This document shows positions 12,224 to 22,981 of a DNA stretch of 64,000 nt, one piece after another. Source of the DNA: Qipengyuania sp. ABI-127-1 (lineage in GTDB: Bacteria > Pseudomonadota > Alphaproteobacteria > Sphingomonadales > Sphingomonadaceae); contig JALJCR010000001.1 of the NCBI GenBank assembly GCA_022953095.1, positions 1,584,501-1,648,500 of the forward strand, given 5' to 3'. Within the stretch, counting starts at the first letter, position 1; each line of letters starts with the position of its first letter. A model generated the notes under the pieces. It was not told the DNA's origin. It was given only the letters and a program-made list of their open reading frames with translations, and did no database searches. A program made the position numbers and the translations under genes.

Positions 12224-12997
12224 ATGTTGCTGGCAGCCGATGTGGGGAATACCAATGTCGTCTTCGCGCTGATCGACGGGCGCGAAATCAAGGCGCGCTG
12301 GCGCATCGCCACCGACCCGCGCAGGACCGGCGACGAATACGCGGTATGGCTGTTGCAGCTCGCCGAATTCCAGGGCTTCGACAAGGGCGATATCACGCAG
12401 ATGATAATCGGTTCGGTCGTGCCGCGGGCGATCCACAACCTTACCGTCCTGTCGGAAAAGTACCTCGGCATAACGCCCCTGATCGCGGGACAAGGAAGCG
12501 CCCAGTGGGGTTTCGAACTCGATATCGAACAGCCCAGTTCGCTGGGCGCCGACCGGGCGCTCAACACGCTTGCCGCCCATGCGAAATACGATGGCGACCT
12601 GGTTGTGGTGGATTTCGGAACAGCGACCACTTTCGACGCGGTCGACTTCACCGGAGCATATAAGGGCGGAATCATCGCACCGGGCATCAACCTCTCGCTC
12701 GATGCGCTGGTCGGCAATACCGCCAAGCTGCCGCGCATAGCGATCGACCGGCCCGACAGTGACAGCGTGATCGGCCGCAATACCGAAGACCAGATGCTGA
12801 TCGGCGTATTCTGGGGCTATGTCGGACTTATCGAAGGATTGATTTCCCGAATGAAACACGAAATCGGCCGACCGGCCAAGGTAGTTGCGACCGGCGGATT
12901 GGCGATCCTGTTCGATGATAACACCGCGCTTTTCGACGCGGTCGATACCGATCTGACGCTTGAAGGGCTTGCCATTCTTGCGGAGCGCGCAGCTTGA
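12224..12997 (+). CDS. coaX: Type III pantothenate kinase
   Basis: Catalyses the first step of coenzyme A synthesis, the ATP-dependent phosphorylation of pantothenate. Its 257 aa fit the CoaX family, which has an ASKHA fold. The phosphate-1 motif [11 protein letters not shown] is at residue 6, the substrate motif [14 protein letters not shown] mid-protein, and the DFGTATTFD phosphate-2 motif near residue 130. It lies 3 bp after birA, and its stop overlaps the TTG start of the RNase J gene. Confidence 0.95.
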
Positions 12998-14643
12998 AGA
13001 AGGACTTCACTCCCGAAGACGAACTGCTCTTCCTCGCGCTCGGCGGCTCGGGCGAGATCGGCATGAACGTCAATCTCTACGGATGCCAGGGTCGGTGGCT
13101 GATGGTCGATCTCGGCATGACGTTCTCGGGCGATCAATATCCCGGCGTCGACCTCGTCTTCGCCGATCTCGAATTCATCGAAGACCGCGCCGACAAGCTC
13201 GATGCGATCGTGCTGACCCACGCGCATGAAGACCATATCGGTGCGGTGCCCTATTTCGCGGCCGATCTCGACGTGCCGATCTATGCGACGCCGTTCACTG
13301 CCGAGCTTGTCCGGCGGAAACTGCAGGAAGCCGGGCTGGTCGACCAGGTCGATGTGCATGTCATTTCCGACGATCACGGCAGCTTCGCCGTCGGTCCGTT
13401 CGAAATTACCTATATCCCGCTCGCCCACTCGATCGCAGAGGGCAATGCGCTGTTGATCGATACGCCGCATGGGCGCATTTTTCATACGGGCGACTGGAAG
13501 CTCGATGAAGACCCGATCATCGGCGAGCCGACCACCGAAGAAGAGCTGACCGAAATCGGTGATGAGGGCGTGCTTGCGCTGGTCTGTGACAGCACCAATG
13601 TCTTCAATCCCGCCCCCAGCGGATCGGAAGGCGCCGTGCACAAGGGGCTGCTCGAAGAAGTGCAGCGCCACGCAGGCAAGCGTGTACTGGTCACAACCTT
13701 CGCCAGCAATGTCGCGCGTTTGCAGACATTGGGCGATGTCGCGCGCGAAACCGGACGGCAGATATGTGTCGCCGGGCGTTCGCTCGATCGGATCATCGAA
13801 GTCTCTCAGGATAATGGCTATCTGCTGGACTTCCCCGAGCCGCTCGACTTCGACACCGCGATGGGCCTGCCGCGCGGCGAATTGCTGATCCTGGCCACGG
13901 GCGGGCAGGGCGAACCGCGCGCGGCGCTTGCCCGGATTGCCGACGAGAACCACCCGCTCGAACTCGTTGGCGGCGATGTCGTCCTGTTCTCGAGCCGCCA
14001 GATCCCCGGCAACGAAATTTCGATCGGGGCGGTGCAGAACAAGCTGGCCGCGCGCGGAATCACCATGGTCACCGATCGCCAGAGCATGATCCACGTATCC
14101 GGCCATCCGGGACGCCCCGAGCTGGAAGCGCTCTATGGCTGGCTGCGACCGGACATTCTCGTTCCCGTTCACGGGGAGATGCGCCATATGCAGGAGCAGG
14201 GCAGGCTGGGTAAGGCCAATGGCATTCCCGATCAGGTCGTGCAGCAGAACGGCGATATCGTCCGCCTCGCGCCGGGCGCACCGGGCAAGGTGGCCGAAGT
14301 GCGGGCAGGCAGGCTCGTTCTCGATGGCGATATCATCGTGCCCGCCGATGGCGAGGCGATCGCCATGCGCCGCCGGATCATGCGCGAGGGTGTGGTCATC
14401 GTTGCGCTGGACGGCGATCTCAATCCGCGTCTCGACAGCATCGGCCTGCCGCTGGACGAGGATTACGGGGATTTTCTCGCGGAAGCGGCGGACGATATCC
14501 GTGCGGCGATAGCGAAGCTGCGCGGGCGCGACCGGCGCGACGAGGCGAGCATTCACGAGGCCGCGCGTCTCGCCGCTCGCCGCGCGGCCCAGCGCTGGTC
14601 GGGCAAACGCCCGCAGGTTCGCGTCATTCTGCCCAATCTGTAG
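12994..14643 (+). CDS. rnj: Ribonuclease J
   Basis: A metallo-beta-lactamase/beta-CASP ribonuclease, with both endo- and 5'-3' exonuclease activity in the family, used in rRNA and mRNA processing; 549 aa. The metal motif HAHEDH covers residues 76-81; later motifs include [18 protein letters not shown] and [13 protein letters not shown]. The TTG start at 12994 overlaps coaX's stop (TTGA). The birA-coaX-rnj order behind nuoN is a familiar alphaproteobacterial arrangement. Confidence 0.94.
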
Positions 14644-14654
14644 GAGCCTTACCC

Positions 14655-14927
14655 ATGGAATGGACCAGCATTCTCGCGATCTATTTCCTGTTCTTCGTCT
14701 TCAGCGCCTTCGTGCTGCTGCCTTTCGGCGTGCGCACGCATGACGAGGCGGGTATCGAGAAAGTCCCCGGCCAGGCAGACAGCGCACCGGTGGAATTCCG
14801 GGGCGGACGGCTGTTGTTGCGCGCGGCCGTGCTCGCCGCTCTCGTCACGGCGGTCTATGTGGCCAACTACATCAATGGCTGGATAACGGTCGAGGACCTG
14901 ATCCTCTGGGGTCCCGACGCGGGGTGA
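14655..14927 (+). CDS. DUF1467 family membrane protein
   Basis: A 90-aa protein with two hydrophobic helices (about residues 4-24 and 52-72) joined by a short hydrophilic stretch starting GVRTHDEAG. It matches my memory of DUF1467, a family of unknown function often found next to rnj in alphaproteobacteria. It is 11 bp downstream of rnj, so probably the last gene of the long nuo-to-rnj operon. It ends directly against the stop of the convergent coiled-coil gene. Confidence 0.85.
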   Translation: MEWTSILAIYFLFFVFSAFVLLPFGVRTHDEAGIEKVPGQADSAPVEFRGGRLLLRAAVLAALVTAVYVANYINGWITVEDLILWGPDAG

Positions 14928-17552
14928 TTATTGCCGCAGGCGTTCGAGCGCCTGCGCCAGTACGACATAGAGCTTGCCCATATCGCTGCTGAGCAGGGTT
15001 ACGCTGACTGCATTGCCATCACGTGTCGACAGCATGGTGCGCAGCATGGATTCGAAATCATGGATGTAGCGGCTTACATGCTCGCGAAAATCCCGATCGG
15101 TATCATAGAGTTCCGCGATCTCGCGCGCTTCGGTATTGTCGACAAGGCGGACTGCGCGGCGAGTGAATATGCCGCGATCCCCGCGCAAATAGCTCGCCCA
15201 GGCGGTGTCGGTAACTTCGGTCGAAAGCACCTTCGCGATGTCGATTGCGTTGGAATTCAGGCTTTCCGTGATTAGCGCGACACGGCGCGAGAAGTCGTTA
15301 TCGACCTCCTCGCTGGCGCGCTCGCGTGCATGCGCGATGCGGCTTTCGAGATTGCCGGTCAGTTCGTTGACCTTGGCGAGCTGATCGCGGAGCTGGCGCA
15401 TGGAATCGCGGCCTGCTTCGGCTGAGCGTGCAGTAGCCTCGCCCAAAGCGGTAATCGCCTCTTCGGTATGTTCGCGCAAAGCCCTGTCGATTGCTTCCGC
15501 GCTCTGTTCCCCGACCTTATCCGCGATGCGGGCAATGCGTGTCGCCTGTTCGCTTTCAATCGCTGAAAGGGCGGTGCGGGCGCTTTCTTCCAACTGTGCG
15601 ATCGCGGCGCGCAATTCGCCGTGTACCCGCTCGGATAGTGTGGCGCTTTCGTCGCCCAAAGCAGCGACAGCGGAGCGCAACCGTTCGATACTGTCGATCT
15701 GAGCCACGGCGGTCTCGCCGAAGCCGGCCTGGAATTCGTCGACCGCACCCATCGCTTCGCGGCTGCGCAGCTCTGCGGTATCCATGCTCGCGGTCAGCGC
15801 CTCGCCCGCCGTTTTCGCCTGGTCGAGCAGATTCTTCACCTCCTCGGCACGCTCTTCGATACTGGCCAGACGATCCTCGCTCGCCGCCATTGCCACGGGC
15901 AGTTCGTCCCGGCTGTGCTTGACGCTCGCCTGTATAAGTTCGAGCAGGCGCACGCTGGCGTCGGTCAGGGCGGAGACTGCCTCATCGGTTCCCGTAAGCG
16001 CCTCCCGGCTTTCCGCCAGCTTGGCGTCGAGCGTGGCAATCCCGGAAGAGAGCTCCTGGCGGGCTTCGCGCCCTTGCTCGCTGACGGTGGAAAACGTCTC
16101 TCCGAGTGCGGCAATGCGGTCGGCAAGTTCTTCGCCTTCGGCGGCCATCAACGACAATTGCTCTGCTTGGGCGGCCCGGCGCTCGGCGATCACTTCATCG
16201 AGTTCGGCCAGGCGCTCGCTCATGCTGGTGCGCGCCTCGTCCTCGGTTTGAGATAGTTCGGCTTGGCGCCGCGAAGTTTCCTCCGCGAACAGGCGGTTGC
16301 GCTCGGCAATGCGCGCGTCGACCGTCTCGGCCTCGGCGAACAGATCCTTCAGCTTGGCATTGGCCGCGGCAATCGCCGAATCGTCGATCCGCGTAATCTC
16401 GGCAATGGCGTCGCGCAGCCGCTCCTGCATCGCTTCGACTTGTGCATTCCAAGCCGTCAAAGCATGCGCTTCTCCATCACGGATCGAGCTCGCTGTTTGG
16501 GCGGTTTCGTCTCTTAGACTGTCGAGGCGCTCGCGCAGGCTTTCCATGGCCGAATCCCGTTGGCGGGCGGCTTCGGCATCGGTTTCGGCCAACTCGCTGC
16601 GGAGCCGCTCGAACCGCGAACGGATCGAGGCGAGGGCCTCCACCTCGCGGCTGTCCAGCTCCCCGCGGAATGCTTCGCTGTTCGCGCGCAATTCGGCGAA
16701 ACGCTGTTCTGCGATCGTGCCGAGCTGTTCGGAGCGGTCCGATAATTCTTCAAGGGCGGCGTCGACCCGTTTCCGCAACGAGCCCACCTGTCGTTCGCTT
16801 GCCATCCCGAATTCGTTGAGCCGCTCGAACCCGGCGATCAGCTCGTCCAGTTGGCGCTGTGCCTCGCGGCCTGCCCCGCCGATCTGGTTCGAGACATCCT
16901 TGGCCGAAGTCGAGATGACCGGCAAATTGTCGCGCAGCCGATCCATATTTTCCAAGGCGGTGACACTTACGCGCGCAATAGATTCGACCTGCTCTCCATT
17001 GTCGCTGATCAGCGATTGCAGGCGATCGGCATGCTCGGACAGGCGATCTGTCGCCATGCGGCCCAGGTAATCGAGTTCGTTCGTTTGCGTGGCCAGGAAT
17101 TCGCGCGCCAGGCTGAGTTCGCGATTGACCGTGACGAGCCGGGTTTCCAGTTCCGCCGATCTGGCCGACAGGTCCTGAGCAACATCGGAAAAGCGTTTCG
17201 CTTCGCGCGTCGAATTGCGCATGGCCAGAAGCCATAGCGACACGATGAGTAGCACCGGTACAGCCCATTGGGTGACGATTTCCGTCCATCGGGACGGGGT
17301 GGGGCCGGCCAGTATTTCCAACTGGTGAGCCCAGCCGTAAAATGCCGTCCAACCGAACGTCGCCACTATGGCGAGAGTGGGGACAACCCACGCACGCTCT
17401 CTGGCCGGGTCCTCGTCCGCCCACCAATCCTCGTCGACAACCTCGTCATTCTCAAGCGAGGTTTCCTCGGTAACGCCCTCGGACCTAACGGCTTCCGGGG
17501 AACTTTCTTCGGTCGTCTTGTCGACGGCCTGGATTAGCGGACGCTTTGTCAT
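14928..17552 (-). CDS. Large two-TM coiled-coil protein, TipN-like
   Basis: 874 aa. An acidic N-terminus of ~50 residues is followed by two TM helices (about 55-74 and 92-111). Then come ~600 residues of heptad-rich, Ala/Glu/Arg coiled coil, and a compact C-terminal block ending with LLSSDMGKLYVVLAQALERL. Size, paired N-terminal TMs and coiled coil match the Caulobacter polarity factor TipN (888 aa), which marks the new pole. I call it TipN-like from architecture and my memory of the C-terminal motif. I chose ATG 17552, because a longer frame to 17663 would cross the divergent Hpt-like gene. A perfect CtrA box lies 33 bp upstream. The alternative is a generic coiled-coil envelope protein. Confidence 0.6.
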   Translation of the reverse strand: MTKRPLIQAVDKTTEESSPEAVRSEGVTEETSLENDEVVDEDWWADEDPARERAWVVPTLAIVATFGWTAFYGWAHQLEILAGPTPSRWTEIVTQWAVPVLLIVSLWLLAMRNSTREAKRFSDVAQDLSARSAELETRLVTVNRELSLAREFLATQTNELDYLGRMATDRLSEHADRLQSLISDNGEQVESIARVSVTALENMDRLRDNLPVISTSAKDVSNQIGGAGREAQRQLDELIAGFERLNEFGMASERQVGSLRKRVDAALEELSDRSEQLGTIAEQRFAELRANSEAFRGELDSREVEALASIRSRFERLRSELAETDAEAARQRDSAMESLRERLDSLRDETAQTASSIRDGEAHALTAWNAQVEAMQERLRDAIAEITRIDDSAIAAANAKLKDLFAEAETVDARIAERNRLFAEETSRRQAELSQTEDEARTSMSERLAELDEVIAERRAAQAEQLSLMAAEGEELADRIAALGETFSTVSEQGREARQELSSGIATLDAKLAESREALTGTDEAVSALTDASVRLLELIQASVKHSRDELPVAMAASEDRLASIEERAEEVKNLLDQAKTAGEALTASMDTAELRSREAMGAVDEFQAGFGETAVAQIDSIERLRSAVAALGDESATLSERVHGELRAAIAQLEESARTALSAIESEQATRIARIADKVGEQSAEAIDRALREHTEEAITALGEATARSAEAGRDSMRQLRDQLAKVNELTGNLESRIAHARERASEEVDNDFSRRVALITESLNSNAIDIAKVLSTEVTDTAWASYLRGDRGIFTRRAVRLVDNTEAREIAELYDTDRDFREHVSRYIHDFESMLRTMLSTRDGNAVSVTLLSSDMGKLYVVLAQALERLRQ

Positions 17553-17584
17553 GATTGCGAAATCTATCACCAAAGCGACCGGGC

Positions 17585-17601
17585 TTAAACCACAATTAAC
17601 C
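17585..17601. promoter_or_regulatory. CtrA-type binding site (TTAA-N7-TTAACC)
   Basis: TTAA at 17585-17588, a 7-base spacer, then TTAA at 17596-17599 followed by CC. This exactly fits the alphaproteobacterial CtrA consensus TTAA-N7-TTAA. It lies in the 71-bp gap between two divergent genes, 33 bp before the TipN-like start and 23 bp before the Hpt-like start, so it could serve both. Confidence 0.65.
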
Positions 17602-17623
17602 GCGTCGAGGGCATAGGGTATCG

Positions 17624-17920
17624 ATGGCCTATCATTCTGCCGAATTCGACGCCGCCCTGGCAACGGCGGCGGGCGACGATCCTTCGCTCCAGGGCGAGCT
17701 GCGCGCGGCTTTCGCAGGCAGCGTGGTTCGGCAACTGGATTTGCTGCGCCGTGCCCGCTGCGATGCCAATTGGGAAGTCGCTGCGGACAAGCTGCACGCT
17801 GTCGCCGCAGGCTTTCATGCCGTGGAACTGATGGGTTTGGCCGACGAGGCGCGTTTGGCGGCTCCCGGGGAGCCTACTGTTCTGCGCCGCATCGATGCTT
17901 TTGCCGAGGCTCTCGCCTGA
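17624..17920 (+). CDS. Hpt-domain-like protein with Asp at the phospho-His position
   Basis: A 98-aa all-helical protein whose middle resembles the Hpt signature (consensus AHxLKGxAxxxG). The matching residues here are ADKLHAVAAGFHA (53-65), so the phospho-accepting His is Asp55. His58 falls where the family has Lys. It may therefore be a degenerate phosphotransfer or docking domain. It starts at ATG 17624, with an AGGG stretch upstream, right after a CtrA box. It heads an apparent + strand operon that continues to the kinase-like gene at 20180. The Hpt assignment is by motif shape only. Confidence 0.6.
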   Translation: MAYHSAEFDAALATAAGDDPSLQGELRAAFAGSVVRQLDLLRRARCDANWEVAADKLHAVAAGFHAVELMGLADEARLAAPGEPTVLRRIDAFAEALA

Positions 17921-18006
17921 GGGTAAATTGGCTGCGCGACTTGGCTTGTGGTGGAAGACCGCCCTAGAAGATGGGTTCGTCCAAAACGTCGCAACCGGAG
18001 TGAAGC

Positions 18007-19185
18007 GTGCGCGTCGCCCTGCTGTCCGTGCTCGATGGCCAATCAGAACCGCGCAAGACAGGAGCGCCCTTCCGTATGCTCGCCGGTGCGCGCCTCGTGG
18101 AGCGGCAGCTCGATATCGCGCTAGCTGCGGGATGCGAGGTCATAGCGTGTCTGGCAGACACGGTGGGGCGCGAAGTGATCGAGCTGCAACACCGGGCCGA
18201 AGCGGGGGGCGCGCGCTTCATCGCGCTGCACGAACCGCGTAAGCTGTCCGGAATGGTCACGGCAAGCGACGAATTGCTGGTCCTGGCGCCAGGCGTATTG
18301 CCCCATGAGGATGCGGTGCTGCGGCATCTGGCAAAGCCCGGCGTGCTCGTTTTTCCCGCCGATCCCGCAGTCGATCGAGGGTACGAGAGGATCGATGCGC
18401 ATTTCGCGTGGGCGGGAACTCTGCTGGTTCGAGGCAATGCCGTCGAGCATCTGGCGCAGCTACCCGACGATGTGGACACTCCTTCCGCGCTTCTGCGGAT
18501 CGCCCTGCAATCGGGCGTGCGCACGCATCCACTTGAAATGCGCCTGCTCGACGAGAATGTCTGGCTGCGCGATCCCTCTCCCGAGGAGCTTGCGGATAGA
18601 GAGCGGAGCTGGGTGGCCGGTCATGCCGATGTCGCGCCATTCACGGCACCCGGCCTTGCCATTGCGGAGCGTATGGGCGCCCGCCTCGCGCGCGATACGC
18701 CGGGAGAGCGCCTGCCGCGCTTTCTGGCGCTGGGCACCGTTGCCGCAAGCCTGCTCGCTTTGTCTCTAGGCCTGGCAGGGTGGGTGTCCTCGGCCTTCGC
18801 TCTGGCCGCGTTGGCGGTAACGCTGTTCGCAATGGAGGGAGTCGTTCGGCGGGTCACCACTGCCGGACAGGTCCGTCCGCGCGTTCCGATGATCGTGCAG
18901 ATTCTAACTGTCCTGATCGATCCCCTGATCGTCCTGCTCATCGCTCTCGCATCTCCCGAAGACACCCAATGGCTGCGTCTCTTCGTGCCCGCGATCCTGA
19001 TCGGTCTGTTGCATCTCGGGGAACGGGTCAGTGCACTGCGCTGGCGACGGAGCTACGCCGATCGGGTAGTGCTGGTTTCGATACTGCTTCCCGCAGTCCT
19101 GCTCGGCATCGTTCAGCCCGTCGTCGGGGCTTTGGCGCTCGCGGTTTTGATATCGATTTTCGTGACTTCGGACCCCAGGAACTAA
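18007..19185 (+). CDS. Membrane protein with nucleotidyltransferase-like N-terminal domain
   Basis: 392 aa with a GTG start. Residues 1-~200 look like a GT-A nucleotidyltransferase fold: an opening beta strand, then GAPFRMLAGARLVERQLDIA and an AGCEVIACLA strand, as in MobA-like or cytidylyltransferase proteins. No full catalytic metal motif is evident. Residues ~235-390 hold five or six TM helices. The layout recalls proteins in which a sugar-phosphate nucleotidyltransferase precedes a CDP-alcohol phosphotransferase, but I do not see the CDP-alcohol signature. It lies 86 bp after the Hpt-like gene and 35 bp before the next. Function is unknown. Confidence 0.6.
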   Translation: MRVALLSVLDGQSEPRKTGAPFRMLAGARLVERQLDIALAAGCEVIACLADTVGREVIELQHRAEAGGARFIALHEPRKLSGMVTASDELLVLAPGVLPHEDAVLRHLAKPGVLVFPADPAVDRGYERIDAHFAWAGTLLVRGNAVEHLAQLPDDVDTPSALLRIALQSGVRTHPLEMRLLDENVWLRDPSPEELADRERSWVAGHADVAPFTAPGLAIAERMGARLARDTPGERLPRFLALGTVAASLLALSLGLAGWVSSAFALAALAVTLFAMEGVVRRVTTAGQVRPRVPMIVQILTVLIDPLIVLLIALASPEDTQWLRLFVPAILIGLLHLGERVSALRWRRSYADRVVLVSILLPAVLLGIVQPVVGALALAVLISIFVTSDPRN

Positions 19186-19200
19186 CGCTCGCTTAACCAT
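19182..19200 (+). promoter_or_regulatory. Probable CtrA box (CTAA-N7-TTAACCAT)
   Basis: CTAA at 19182-19185, 7 bases, then TTAA at 19193-19196 followed by CCAT. It has one mismatch to TTAA-N7-TTAA. It overlaps the end of the preceding gene and sits 20 bp before the ATG at 19221. It would place the unknown helical protein and the kinase-like protein under the same cell-cycle control as the divergent pair at 17.6 kb. Confidence 0.5.
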
Positions 19201-19220
19201 GCCGCTGCTAATTTCGCACT

Positions 19221-20183
19221 ATGCCGATGCCTGATGCAGCATCCCCCGGGGTCACCGACGACCAGGAGCCCCTGCGCGATGCACTCGCGCGGGGCAACGC
19301 CGCGCTTGCGCGGATCGGGCCGATACTGACGCACCTGATCGCCACTCCGGATCACTCGCTATTCAGCGACGAGATCATCGCTCGAGTCCGCGGCATGTGT
19401 CATAGCCTTGCCTGGCAGGCCCTGCGCGCCCAGGCCGAGGCGGCCGGACAAGTGGGTAGCGAGACCTTTGCCGAACGCCATGGCGAAGACCTTGCCAAGC
19501 ATTTCTTCAACAGCCCTTCTTTGCTCGCGCATTGTCATGCGCTTGCGCTCGAATGGCAGCTCACGGAAAAGCTGGAGGTGCAATACGGGATCGATCCGGT
19601 TCTCTCTCCACTGGTTCAGGAACTGATCGCCGCGCCCGATAGCGGGCTCGCCAGCGCTGCCATGGCCTTGCTGACCTCGCAGGCGCGCTTCGCCCAGGCG
19701 CAGCGCCGGATGGAGCTACCTCTGGCGGAGTTGCCGGGCGACCTGTTCCATGATCTGCTGATGGGGTGGCGCGCCTATGGTGGCCAGTTACGCTCCGACG
19801 CCATGATTCGAGCTGAGGCGAAGCTGCGCAATGCCTTCGACGAGGGGGCGGGCCGGTTGGCCCTGCTGGCGCGGGTCGTGGCGGGTATGGGCAATACCGC
19901 ATTGAGGGCACTGGACATCGATCAGGCGGGTACCGCATTGTATCTGACCGCGCTTGCCGTGCGATCGGGGCAGTCGCGGACCGCAGCCGTCCTGTCCACC
20001 AACCATCAGCAAACGGCCCGCCTGGCACTGGGGTTGCGGGCAGCAGGCCTCGATAGCGCCGACGTCGAGCGCCAGGTGTTGCGCCTTGTGCCCAAAGCGT
20101 TTCCCCCGCGGGAAATCGCCGGTATCGCCGCCGAGGAGGCGCGCTGTTTGCTTGCCGAGTCGGCACTTCCGGGAATGGCATGA
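19221..20183 (+). CDS. Hypothetical alpha-helical protein upstream of a histidine-kinase-like gene
   Basis: 320 aa with no signal peptide, no TM helix and no motif I recognise. It looks almost wholly helical and Ala/Leu-rich, like a cytosolic scaffold. It overlaps the kinase-like gene by 4 bp (ATGA), so the two are probably made in fixed ratio and may interact. A CtrA-like box immediately precedes it. Confidence 0.6.
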   Translation: MPMPDAASPGVTDDQEPLRDALARGNAALARIGPILTHLIATPDHSLFSDEIIARVRGMCHSLAWQALRAQAEAAGQVGSETFAERHGEDLAKHFFNSPSLLAHCHALALEWQLTEKLEVQYGIDPVLSPLVQELIAAPDSGLASAAMALLTSQARFAQAQRRMELPLAELPGDLFHDLLMGWRAYGGQLRSDAMIRAEAKLRNAFDEGAGRLALLARVVAGMGNTALRALDIDQAGTALYLTALAVRSGQSRTAAVLSTNHQQTARLALGLRAAGLDSADVERQVLRLVPKAFPPREIAGIAAEEARCLLAESALPGMA

Positions 20184-21622
20184 CCATGGCGAGCGTCGGA
20201 ACCCGATACGTTGCCCATGGCAAGGCCGATGCTGATGGAAATCTGGTACGGGCCGATGACGTTCTCGCCCAGCTTCATCAGGCTTGCGGTGGGAAAATCG
20301 GATCGCGGATTGCGATCCCCGAACTGCTCGCCTTGGTCGAAAAGGCTTTGCGTTTCGGGTTGAAGCTGGCTCGCCAGTTCGAAGCCATCGACGGCGAAAA
20401 CCGGGTCACTGCCTGGGTGGAGATTTGCCCCTTCACGGACGAAGCGGGAGAAGTGGCAGGCTGCACGATCGATGTTGTCAGTTGGCATAGCGAAGAATTG
20501 CCGCCCGAAAATGAAATCGAGGCGGCGCGGCGCCGGGTGGAGATCAATCGGCACCTTGCGGATTGCACCGCGCGGCTCGATTCGAACCAGCGGCTCTTGT
20601 CTATCGAGACACAGGCTCCCGACCTTGCCGATTTCGCCGAACAGGCGCTGGCCGCAGCCGGAAAACCGTGGACCGACCTGGTCCGCCTGCCGGGCAATAC
20701 CCATCGGCAGCCGCTCCACTGGCGTCTGCTCGATGGTGCCACGTGCGAAATCGACGGATCGAACCGCAAGTGGACAGCCCATCTCGAACCATTGGGTCAG
20801 CCGCAACCAGGTAGCGCAGGTTTCGTTCTCTATCTGAGCGCCGAGCGCCCACTGGCGGACGATGGTGGCGATAGGGACCAAGACGAAGCCGAGGCGCCGT
20901 CCTTCGGCAGGGATCTCACGCCTGTTCTGCGGCAGCCGATCAATCGTATCATCGCCAATGCCGAAACGATCCGCACCAAGCTCGCCGGGCCTCTGGCCGA
21001 TGAATACAGTTCCTACGCCGCCGATATCGCGACCGCCGCGCAGCACCTGCTTGCGCTGATCGACGACCTGTCGGATCTGGAAGTCGTGGAATCGGAGGAT
21101 TTCATGACCGCACCCGACCGTATCGAACTTGCCGACGTTGCCCGCCGGGCTTGTGGTATATTGGGCGTTCGCGCTCGCGAGAAAGGAATCACGCTTGTCG
21201 CGCCGCCCGAGGGCGAAAGCCAGTTGGCGATCGCCGAATTCCGGCGTGTGCTGCAGATTCTGCTCAACCTCGTCGGCAATGCGATCCGGTATTCTCCGGA
21301 CGACAGTCAGGTATGGATTCGGCTTGACCGGATCGGCAATCGCGCGCTCATAACCGTCGCCGATCAGGGACACGGGCTCGAACCGGAACAACAGGAGCGC
21401 GTTTTCGAGAAATTCGAACGCCTCGGGCGCAGCGGGGATGGAGGATCGGGTCTTGGCCTCTACATTTCCCGGCGAATTGCGCGCGCCATGGATGGCGATC
21501 TGACCGTGGAAAGTGCGCCGGGACAAGGTGCGCGGTTTACGCTTTCGGTTCCTGCGGCGGAGGATTTGCGCAAGGAGCCGCGCGACGGCCCGACCATACT
21601 GAAACCGCGCGACAAAGGCTAA
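20180..21622 (+). CDS. Cytosolic histidine-kinase-like protein lacking the phospho-His
   Basis: 480 aa with no TM segments. The N-terminal ~130 residues resemble a PAS-type sensory domain and are followed by a linker. The dimerisation helix around residue 248 reads PVLRQPINRII where kinases have HELRTPLN, so the phospho-acceptor His is Pro248 (codon 20921-20923). The ATPase domain looks intact: N box NLVGNAIRYSP, G1 DQGHGL, F box FEKFERLG and G2 GSGLGL. It may be a pseudokinase or allosteric partner, a role known for Caulobacter DivL, which carries Tyr instead of His. It overlaps the preceding gene by 4 bp. Confidence 0.8.
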   Translation: MTMASVGTRYVAHGKADADGNLVRADDVLAQLHQACGGKIGSRIAIPELLALVEKALRFGLKLARQFEAIDGENRVTAWVEICPFTDEAGEVAGCTIDVVSWHSEELPPENEIEAARRRVEINRHLADCTARLDSNQRLLSIETQAPDLADFAEQALAAAGKPWTDLVRLPGNTHRQPLHWRLLDGATCEIDGSNRKWTAHLEPLGQPQPGSAGFVLYLSAERPLADDGGDRDQDEAEAPSFGRDLTPVLRQPINRIIANAETIRTKLAGPLADEYSSYAADIATAAQHLLALIDDLSDLEVVESEDFMTAPDRIELADVARRACGILGVRAREKGITLVAPPEGESQLAIAEFRRVLQILLNLVGNAIRYSPDDSQVWIRLDRIGNRALITVADQGHGLEPEQQERVFEKFERLGRSGDGGSGLGLYISRRIARAMDGDLTVESAPGQGARFTLSVPAAEDLRKEPRDGPTILKPRDKG

Positions 21623-21694: not shown

Positions 21695-22981
21695 TCAGCG
21701 CTGGCCGATGGGCACGTAGTCGCGTTCGGTCGGGCCGGTGTAAAGCTGGCGCGGACGGCCGATTACCTGAGCGGGGTCGGAAATCATCTCGTTCCACTGT
21801 GCGACCCAGCCGACCGTGCGTGCCAGCGCAAAGAGCGCGGTGAACATGGTGGTCGGGAAGCCGATCGCGTTGAGAATGATGCCGGAATAGAAGTCGACGT
21901 TCGGGAAAAGTTTCTTTTCCTTGAAGTAATCGTCGTTCAGGGCAAGCTCTTCCAGCTTCAACGCGGTTTCGAAGACCGGATCGTTCACGTTGAGCGCTTC
22001 GAACACTTCGCGCAGCGTCTGCTGCATCACCGTCGCGCGCGGATCGTAGTTCTTGTAGACCCGGTGGCCGAAGCCCATCAGGCGGAACGGATCGTTCTTG
22101 TCCTTGGCGCGCTCGATATAATGCGGGATGCGATCGGGCGAACCGATTTCCTGCAGCATGTTGAGCGCGGCTTCGTTGGCACCGCCATGCGCCGGCCCCC
22201 ACAGGCAGGCAATGCCGGCCGCGATACAGGCAAAGGGATTCGCCCCCGACGAACCGGCCAGGCGCACGGTCGAGGTCGAGGCGTTCTGCTCGTGATCGGC
22301 GTGGAGGATGAAGATCCGGTCCATCGCGCGTTCGATCGCGGGGTGGATTTCATATTCTTCTGCCGGAACGCCGAAGGTCATGCGCAGGAAATTGCCGGTA
22401 TAGCTGAGGTCGTTCTGCGGCTGCAGGAACGGCTGACCGACTGCATATTTGAACGCCATCGCCGCGATCGTCGGCATCTTGGCGATCAGGCGGTGGCTGG
22501 CGATCTTGCGCTGTTCGGGGTCCGAAATGTCGGTGCTGTCGTGGTAGAAGGCCGACAGCGCGCCGACCACGCCGCACATGATCGCCATGGGGTGCGCATC
22601 GCGGCGGAAGCCCTGATAGAACTGGCGGAGCTGGTCGTGCACCATAGTATGGCGCGTGATGGTGTAATCGAAATCGTCGAGTTCCTGCTGCTTCGGCAGC
22701 TCACCGTTCAGCAGGAGATAGGCGACTTCCATGAAGCTGGAGTTCTCGGCGAGCTGGCCGATCGGGTAGCCGCGATGGAGCAGGACACCTTCTTCGCCAT
22801 CGATATAGGTCAGCGCACTCTCGCAGCTCGCGGTCGACTTGTACCCTGGATCGTAGGTGAATTTGCCGGTCGTGCCATAAAGCTTGCGAATGTCGACGAC
22901 ATCCGGCCCGACGCTGCCCTCCAGCACGGGAAATTCCTGGGTCTTGTCGCCCAGATCGAGAGTTGCCTGCTTGTCGGCCAC
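21695..22981 (-). CDS. gltA: Citrate synthase
   Basis: Condenses oxaloacetate and acetyl-CoA in the first step of the TCA cycle. Its 428 aa fit the hexameric type II enzyme of Gram-negatives. The catalytic His lies in [10 protein letters not shown], a second conserved block is [11 protein letters not shown], and the catalytic Asp is in the late NVDFYSGI segment. It lies 9 bp after gltX on the same strand and ends at a strong terminator. Confidence 0.98.

Follow-up and report, generated by a model that had tools for sequence, protein, structure and literature searches.

The described systems closest to the locus considered here include the landmark proteins TipN and GPR. TipN of Caulobacter crescentus has 882 amino acids (aa) (PMC13170164). 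GPR of Agrobacterium and RgsE of Sinorhizobium, with 2115 and 2089 aa, respectively, are reported to combine two N-terminal transmembrane (TM) segments with apolipoprotein-like helices, and GPR shortened by 221 or 332 residues at its C terminus did not complement (PMC8262873, PMC7327166). The similarity of GPR to TipN has already been stated (PMC8546619). Sphingomonadales retain CckA-ChpT-CtrA; in them DivJ-PleC-DivK has degenerated or disappeared, although several members have an ortholog of DivK or PleC (PMC2877005). We analyzed a stretch of 64,000 nucleotides (hereafter the window) from Qipengyuania sp. ABI-127-1 (Sphingomonadales; GenBank assembly GCA_022953095.1, contig JALJCR010000001.1, positions 1,584,501 to 1,648,500), which carries a block of five genes designated A to E (Table 1). 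Gene A is divergent from B, and C, D, and E lie downstream of B in the same direction, the reading frames of D and E overlapping by 4 bases. We give an about even chance to the interpretation that this block is a CtrA-activated cell-polarity module, the sequence basis of which is homology, lost residues, boxes, and synteny. Re-reading of the window bore out the gene coordinates. The span 17552..21622, singled out by an earlier inspection of the letters only (the sequence-only reading), holds B to E completely and only the start of A.

Protein A is probably a TipN/GPR-type landmark, anchored in the membrane and marking the cell pole. As in this protein family generally, N-terminal hydrophobic sequence is followed by a long coiled coil. 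Of the two TM segments assigned by the sequence-only reading, the one at residues 90-115 was over the hydropathy threshold, and the first, at residues ~56-74, was weaker and below it. Matches of A to apolipoprotein and SMC-like coiled-coil families were weak and under the curated cut-offs. The proposal of a TipN-like protein is now backed, besides size, by a shared, conserved C-terminal domain, which lacks a dedicated Pfam family and forms the end of TipN/GPR-like proteins from across the Alphaproteobacteria. The profile of A had matches in 128/147 genomes of the order and in 47/190 genomes of the class; three of the latter belonged to the window's family, and all but five of the other 44 matched in the C-terminal region. 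Of eleven titled records examined, one was cut off by the locus edge; two N-terminal hydrophobic segments, as reported for GPR and RgsE, were found in nine and one in a single record. Their uncut frames were 693-2000 aa long (Azorhizobium, 2000; Nitratireductor, 1606; a Rhizobium metagenome-assembled genome, 1466). In a family taken as probable Caulobacteraceae from its DivJ scores (415-466 bits, under the curated cut-off), the domain was matched in 20 of 26 genomes, every time at E 2.5e-4 or better. In 13 of the 14 loci taken from this family it ended frames that were 830-1203 aa long and began with a pair of hydrophobic segments, as would be expected of TipN.

Protein B seems to be derived from a genuine Hpt whose gene, in many other alphaproteobacteria, lies close to that for the landmark. 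Pfam Hpt matched 11 of 28 B orthologs at E<=1 (best 1.5e-4), and the window's B gave no match. The phospho-acceptor His that characterizes Hpt enzymes was found in none of 42 members of the B family (28 of the set and 14 further ones), and ten other residues occupied its column. Lys or Arg was present at H+3 in 36/42 members and Gly at H+4 in 32/42; a surface-exposed glycine at H+4 is described in PMC6341664. The absence of the catalytic His from both signalling proteins, noted from the letters, was confirmed, with Asp55 at this position in B and Pro248 in E. In 20 loci of other families or orders (L163-L182), an Hpt was encoded near A in 13, all with an HxLKG-like motif and with His kept (13/13). 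From a genome collection, 80 named loci were taken (L183-L262), and 21 with an A frame beginning <1,600 bases from the edge were dropped. Among the remaining 59, an Hpt was located upstream of A on the opposite strand in 55; the motif was found in 52 and AHxLVG in three, His being kept in all 55. Many of these records are closely related to one another, and the two sets share two loci. The Hpt-A spacing reached 1.7 kb, and the two genes were not always direct neighbours. A receiver protein is encoded beside the Hpt and landmark genes in L172, and an apparent one in L167.

Protein C consists of a nucleotidyltransferase-like N-terminal half and a C-terminal half with membrane helices and resembles the lipid/inositol enzyme IPCT-DIPPS (4mnd). 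The motif of CDP-alcohol phosphotransferases is DxxDGxxAR...GxxxDxxxD. Unlike the enzyme, C sequences lack it throughout (31/31), and because of this loss C is unlikely to be a lipid enzyme itself. Protein D is all-helical (predicted model, pLDDT 91.2). The window's D did not match DUF2336 (PF10098); one of 32 orthologs did at 1.1e-6, under the cut-off, and the counterpart in L145 was over it (56.4 vs 34.6 bits). The two proteins that the first inspection described as unknown, in a tight run leading to E, are now less so: C has a degenerate IPCT-DIPPS fold, and D is probably a distant DUF2336 relative.

With protein D as a query, matches were obtained in 32/147 genomes of the order; a D profile gave 43 matches among genomes of the order, 11 of them weak. 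Through D, 31 loci besides the window were picked as stretches of ~13 kb (D is present in 31/31 by construction). A and E were present in all 31, C in 30, and B in 27, and the order A-B-C-D-E was kept in relatives while identity to the window proteins dropped to 19-48% at the low end. A second set, also from the window's family, comprised 20 loci chosen for the presence of A and the absence of a strong D. In 19 of these, A was adjoined by the genes that we take to encode an RNase J-like protein and a DUF1467 protein; B was found in 14 and C in 11, E adjoined the presumed citrate synthase gene gltA in nine, and D was recognisable in three. By these counts in 31 + 20 loci, the block extends through the whole family, with erosion in some loci. 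The sequence-only reading had named a lack of conserved synteny as a ground for its rejection; synteny was found. In one relative (L064), C is absent between B and D, and both boxes are still there.

A less likely alternative, and the most probable of three, is that the genes are neighbours and not one machine: A would be a polarity or growth-pole scaffold, and C-E would constitute an operon of their own, serving the envelope or metabolism and sharing CtrA timing. The likeness of C to a lipid/inositol enzyme, the separate box of D-E, the 20 loci from other families or orders, in which A occurs and C-E do not, and the second set, where E lies beside gltA in nine loci and C occurs in 11, are in agreement with it. 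The gene order, retained at such low identities, and the loss of the catalytic motif in every C sequence speak against it.

The gene set is apparently switched on by CtrA, as judged from conserved TTAA-N7-TTAA boxes of the kind that precede genes of the CtrA regulon. The perfect box in the divergent gap and the one-mismatch box before the last two genes, both reported previously for the window, were located; the former is the sole TTAA-N7-TTAA in the window (shuffle mean 0.04). A box with <=1 mismatch was present within 90 bases upstream of D in 31/32 loci and of A in 23/32 loci, while 100 dinucleotide shuffles gave means of 1.06 (max 5) and 1.25 (max 4), respectively. At the same threshold, no box was found in the control regions upstream of C (0/31), E (0/32), RNase J (0/29), gltA (0/30), and DUF1467 (0/29). 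The D box was mostly 38-45 bases upstream of the start (27 in L057), with [CA]TAAC-N6-TTAACCA as its typical form. Among 28 loci, four loci without B being left out, the box of the A-B gap was 30-32 bases from the A start in 22 and 23-27 bases from the B start in 26; it was perfect in 10, with one mismatch in 12, and with two in six. Alignment of 24 of the 32 loci revealed nearly invariant half-site bases and a drifting spacer. In the 55 spaces between Hpt and A of the genome collection, boxes with <=1 mismatch were detected in 39 vs 4.6 in single-base shuffles, and perfect ones in five vs 0.2. The genome encodes ChpT, a CtrA ortholog with 81% identity to a Caulobacter CtrA probe, and a DivK-like regulator with 49% identity to a DivK probe. 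It is improbable that the boxes are sites of a different regulator or that CtrA represses through them: in favour of this, the motif was not enriched genome-wide over a reversed control, but spacing and half sites agree with the CtrA consensus, the half sites persist while the spacer drifts, and CtrA and ChpT are both encoded. By eye, box-like sites were also noticed between apparent genes for a ParA-like ATPase and a Sel1/SPOR-like protein (L138, G000:C3:56920) and upstream of an apparent CHASE2-type signalling protein (L142, G000:C5:453387).

Protein E matched HATPase_c (7.5e-29) and HisKA (7.8e-7). At the His position of the H-box, 31 of 32 sequences had Pro and one had Ser; at H+4, 31 had Gln and one had Ala. 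Kinases that double as phosphatases have Thr or Asn at H+4. Nine further members of the E family had Arg (3), Pro (2), Glu (2), and otherwise Ala or Asp at the His position. The residues of what we take to be the N, G1, F, and G2 boxes were invariant in the 32 sequences, as expected for ATP binding. The DHp helices of E read GPL..Y..YA..I..AG.HLL.LI.DL, much as in three DivJ-like sequences of the probable Caulobacteraceae, and bear the signature of the DivJ/PleC (PdhS) type; it was absent from the 12 other kinases of the window's genome that were aligned (of 14 kinase matches, one was E and one was left out). Very improbably, the lost His was replaced by unusual chemistry, E using another residue for phosphate transfer or being an ATPase or protein kinase, as the invariant ATP-binding boxes could indicate, since the His position of E varies among the residues listed, its H+4 is Gln or Ala, and ten different residues occur at the His position of B.

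For the CtrA-activated polarity module, these sequence features suggest the conversion of a chemical signal relay into a control complex that works through binding only; polar placement, CtrA binding, complex formation, a DivK-like partner, and feedback are inferred from them. A would be the membrane-anchored landmark, and B, C, and E would be former enzymes retained for binding. B would be a dead Hpt, its receiver-docking residues mostly retained in the family, and C a dead lipid or nucleotide enzyme which could keep the complex at the membrane. E, a putative DivJ/PleC-type kinase, should still bind ATP but would be unable to phosphorylate or to employ the residue normally used by phosphatases. 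With CtrA active, A and B would be turned on from the divergent box that they share, and D and E from the second box. At the pole, E (with B) may bind a DivK-like receiver or another partner and pass its state on by a change of shape, as thought for DivL. In this way, CckA-ChpT-CtrA would receive feedback from a pole that performs no chemistry itself. The earlier suggestion of a cell-cycle scaffold or pseudo-signalling complex is partly upheld, the sequences supporting it as far as the TipN-like A, the conserved boxes, the synteny, and the loss of His are concerned.

Several observations weigh against this module. Among the 31 loci, B is missing in four and C in one. In the comparisons of A, TipN-sized and GPR-sized proteins stood in for the TipN of C. 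crescentus and the GPR of Agrobacterium. The window's own B has lost the Lys and Gly after the His position and reads His and Ala. A lacked a nearby Hpt in 7/20 loci of other families or orders and in 4/59 named loci, as did the TipN-like gene in 13/13 loci of the probable Caulobacteraceae. Genome-wide, TTAAN7TTAAC had seven matches and its reversed control also seven; HTAA-N7-TTAACC had nine vs seven in the control, the nine falling at seven places, two of these inside the block. Other sites were, by eye, not all in front of cell-cycle genes. Since the motif alone is not enriched genome-wide, the evidence is its conservation in place. Tree support for E with DivJ was modest (0.66-0.91), and the best solved relatives of E were ordinary kinases, with DivL tenth.

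Table 1. Features of the five-gene block and its surroundings (window coordinates).
Feature	Position	Strand	Remarks
RNase J-like neighbour (presumed)	12994-14643	+	In 28/31 loci
DUF1467 neighbour (presumed)	14655-14927	+	In 28/31 loci
A, 874 aa	14928-17552	-	ATG at 17552; TipN/GPR-like membrane-anchored coiled-coil protein
A, C-terminal domain, ~120-140 aa	14931-15350	-	Occurs across Alphaproteobacteria
A, strong hydrophobic segment, residues 90-115	17208-17285	-	Hydropathy only
CtrA-like box, divergent A-B gap	17585-17600	.	TTAA-N7-TTAAC; position conserved in related loci
B, 98 aa	17624-17920	+	Probable degenerate Hpt without phospho-acceptor His
B, Asp55 codon	17786-17788	+	Aligned with Hpt phospho-acceptor His
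C	18007-19185	+	GTG start; degenerate IPCT-DIPPS-like membrane protein
CtrA-like box before D-E	19182-19197	+	One mismatch; first half overlaps stop codon of C
D	19221-20183	+	All-helical; probable distant DUF2336 relative
E	20180-21622	+	Cytosolic pseudo-histidine kinase; DivJ/PleC-type DHp, intact ATP-binding motifs
E, Pro248 codon	20921-20923	+	Phospho-acceptor His position
Citrate synthase (gltA) neighbour (presumed)	21695-22981	-	Convergent to E; in 29/31 loci

Citrate synthase is a conserved neighbour of E; in Caulobacter, a genetic link is reported between the citrate synthase CitA and both TipN and CtrA (PMC7083601).

More broadly, we regard as possible, although rather doubtful, that a TipN/GPR-like landmark with its own Hpt partner occurs in much of Alphaproteobacteria and ties polarity or polar growth to an undescribed phosphorelay. 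In the window's family, this relay would have lost its catalysis: in the resulting complex, controlled by CtrA, a dead Hpt and a dead kinase of the DivJ/PleC type would sense a DivK-like regulator at the pole and take the place of the input that vanished with DivJ-PleC. The block is a candidate route by which Sphingomonadales couple polarity to CtrA despite a degenerate DivJ-PleC-DivK (PMC2877005). One C-terminal domain without its own Pfam family unites TipN-sized and GPR-sized proteins. With an Hpt indicated as their genomic partner, the upstream signal of polar growth becomes directly testable, and the loci form a clean natural series in which the Hpt lost its His yet stayed in place.

Compared with TipN, A is alike in size, N-terminal membrane segment(s), and long coiled coil, and its C-terminal domain also ends the TipN-sized proteins of the probable Caulobacteraceae; full-length profile similarity, seen with these proteins, is slight (3/13 at E<0.01), and A has B, whereas their genes lack a nearby Hpt. 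With GPR and RgsE, A shares the reported layout, and its C-terminal domain is also found at the end of rhizobial proteins that have 1466-2000 aa and two N-terminal segments, the likeness being seen with these GPR-sized proteins; however, A has less than half the length of GPR and RgsE, and its Hpt neighbour is catalytically dead. B resembles Hpt domain proteins in the weak Pfam match of its orthologs and in its place near A, the same as that of the genuine Hpt of other families, and differs in the lost His. E shares with DivL the kinase fold without a phospho-acceptor His. DivL has Tyr at this position, whereas E has Pro. Unlike both DivL and DivJ/PleC, E has no TM segment and adjoins a landmark gene; as in both, the ATP site is kept, and with DivJ/PleC it has the DivJ-type DHp signature in common.

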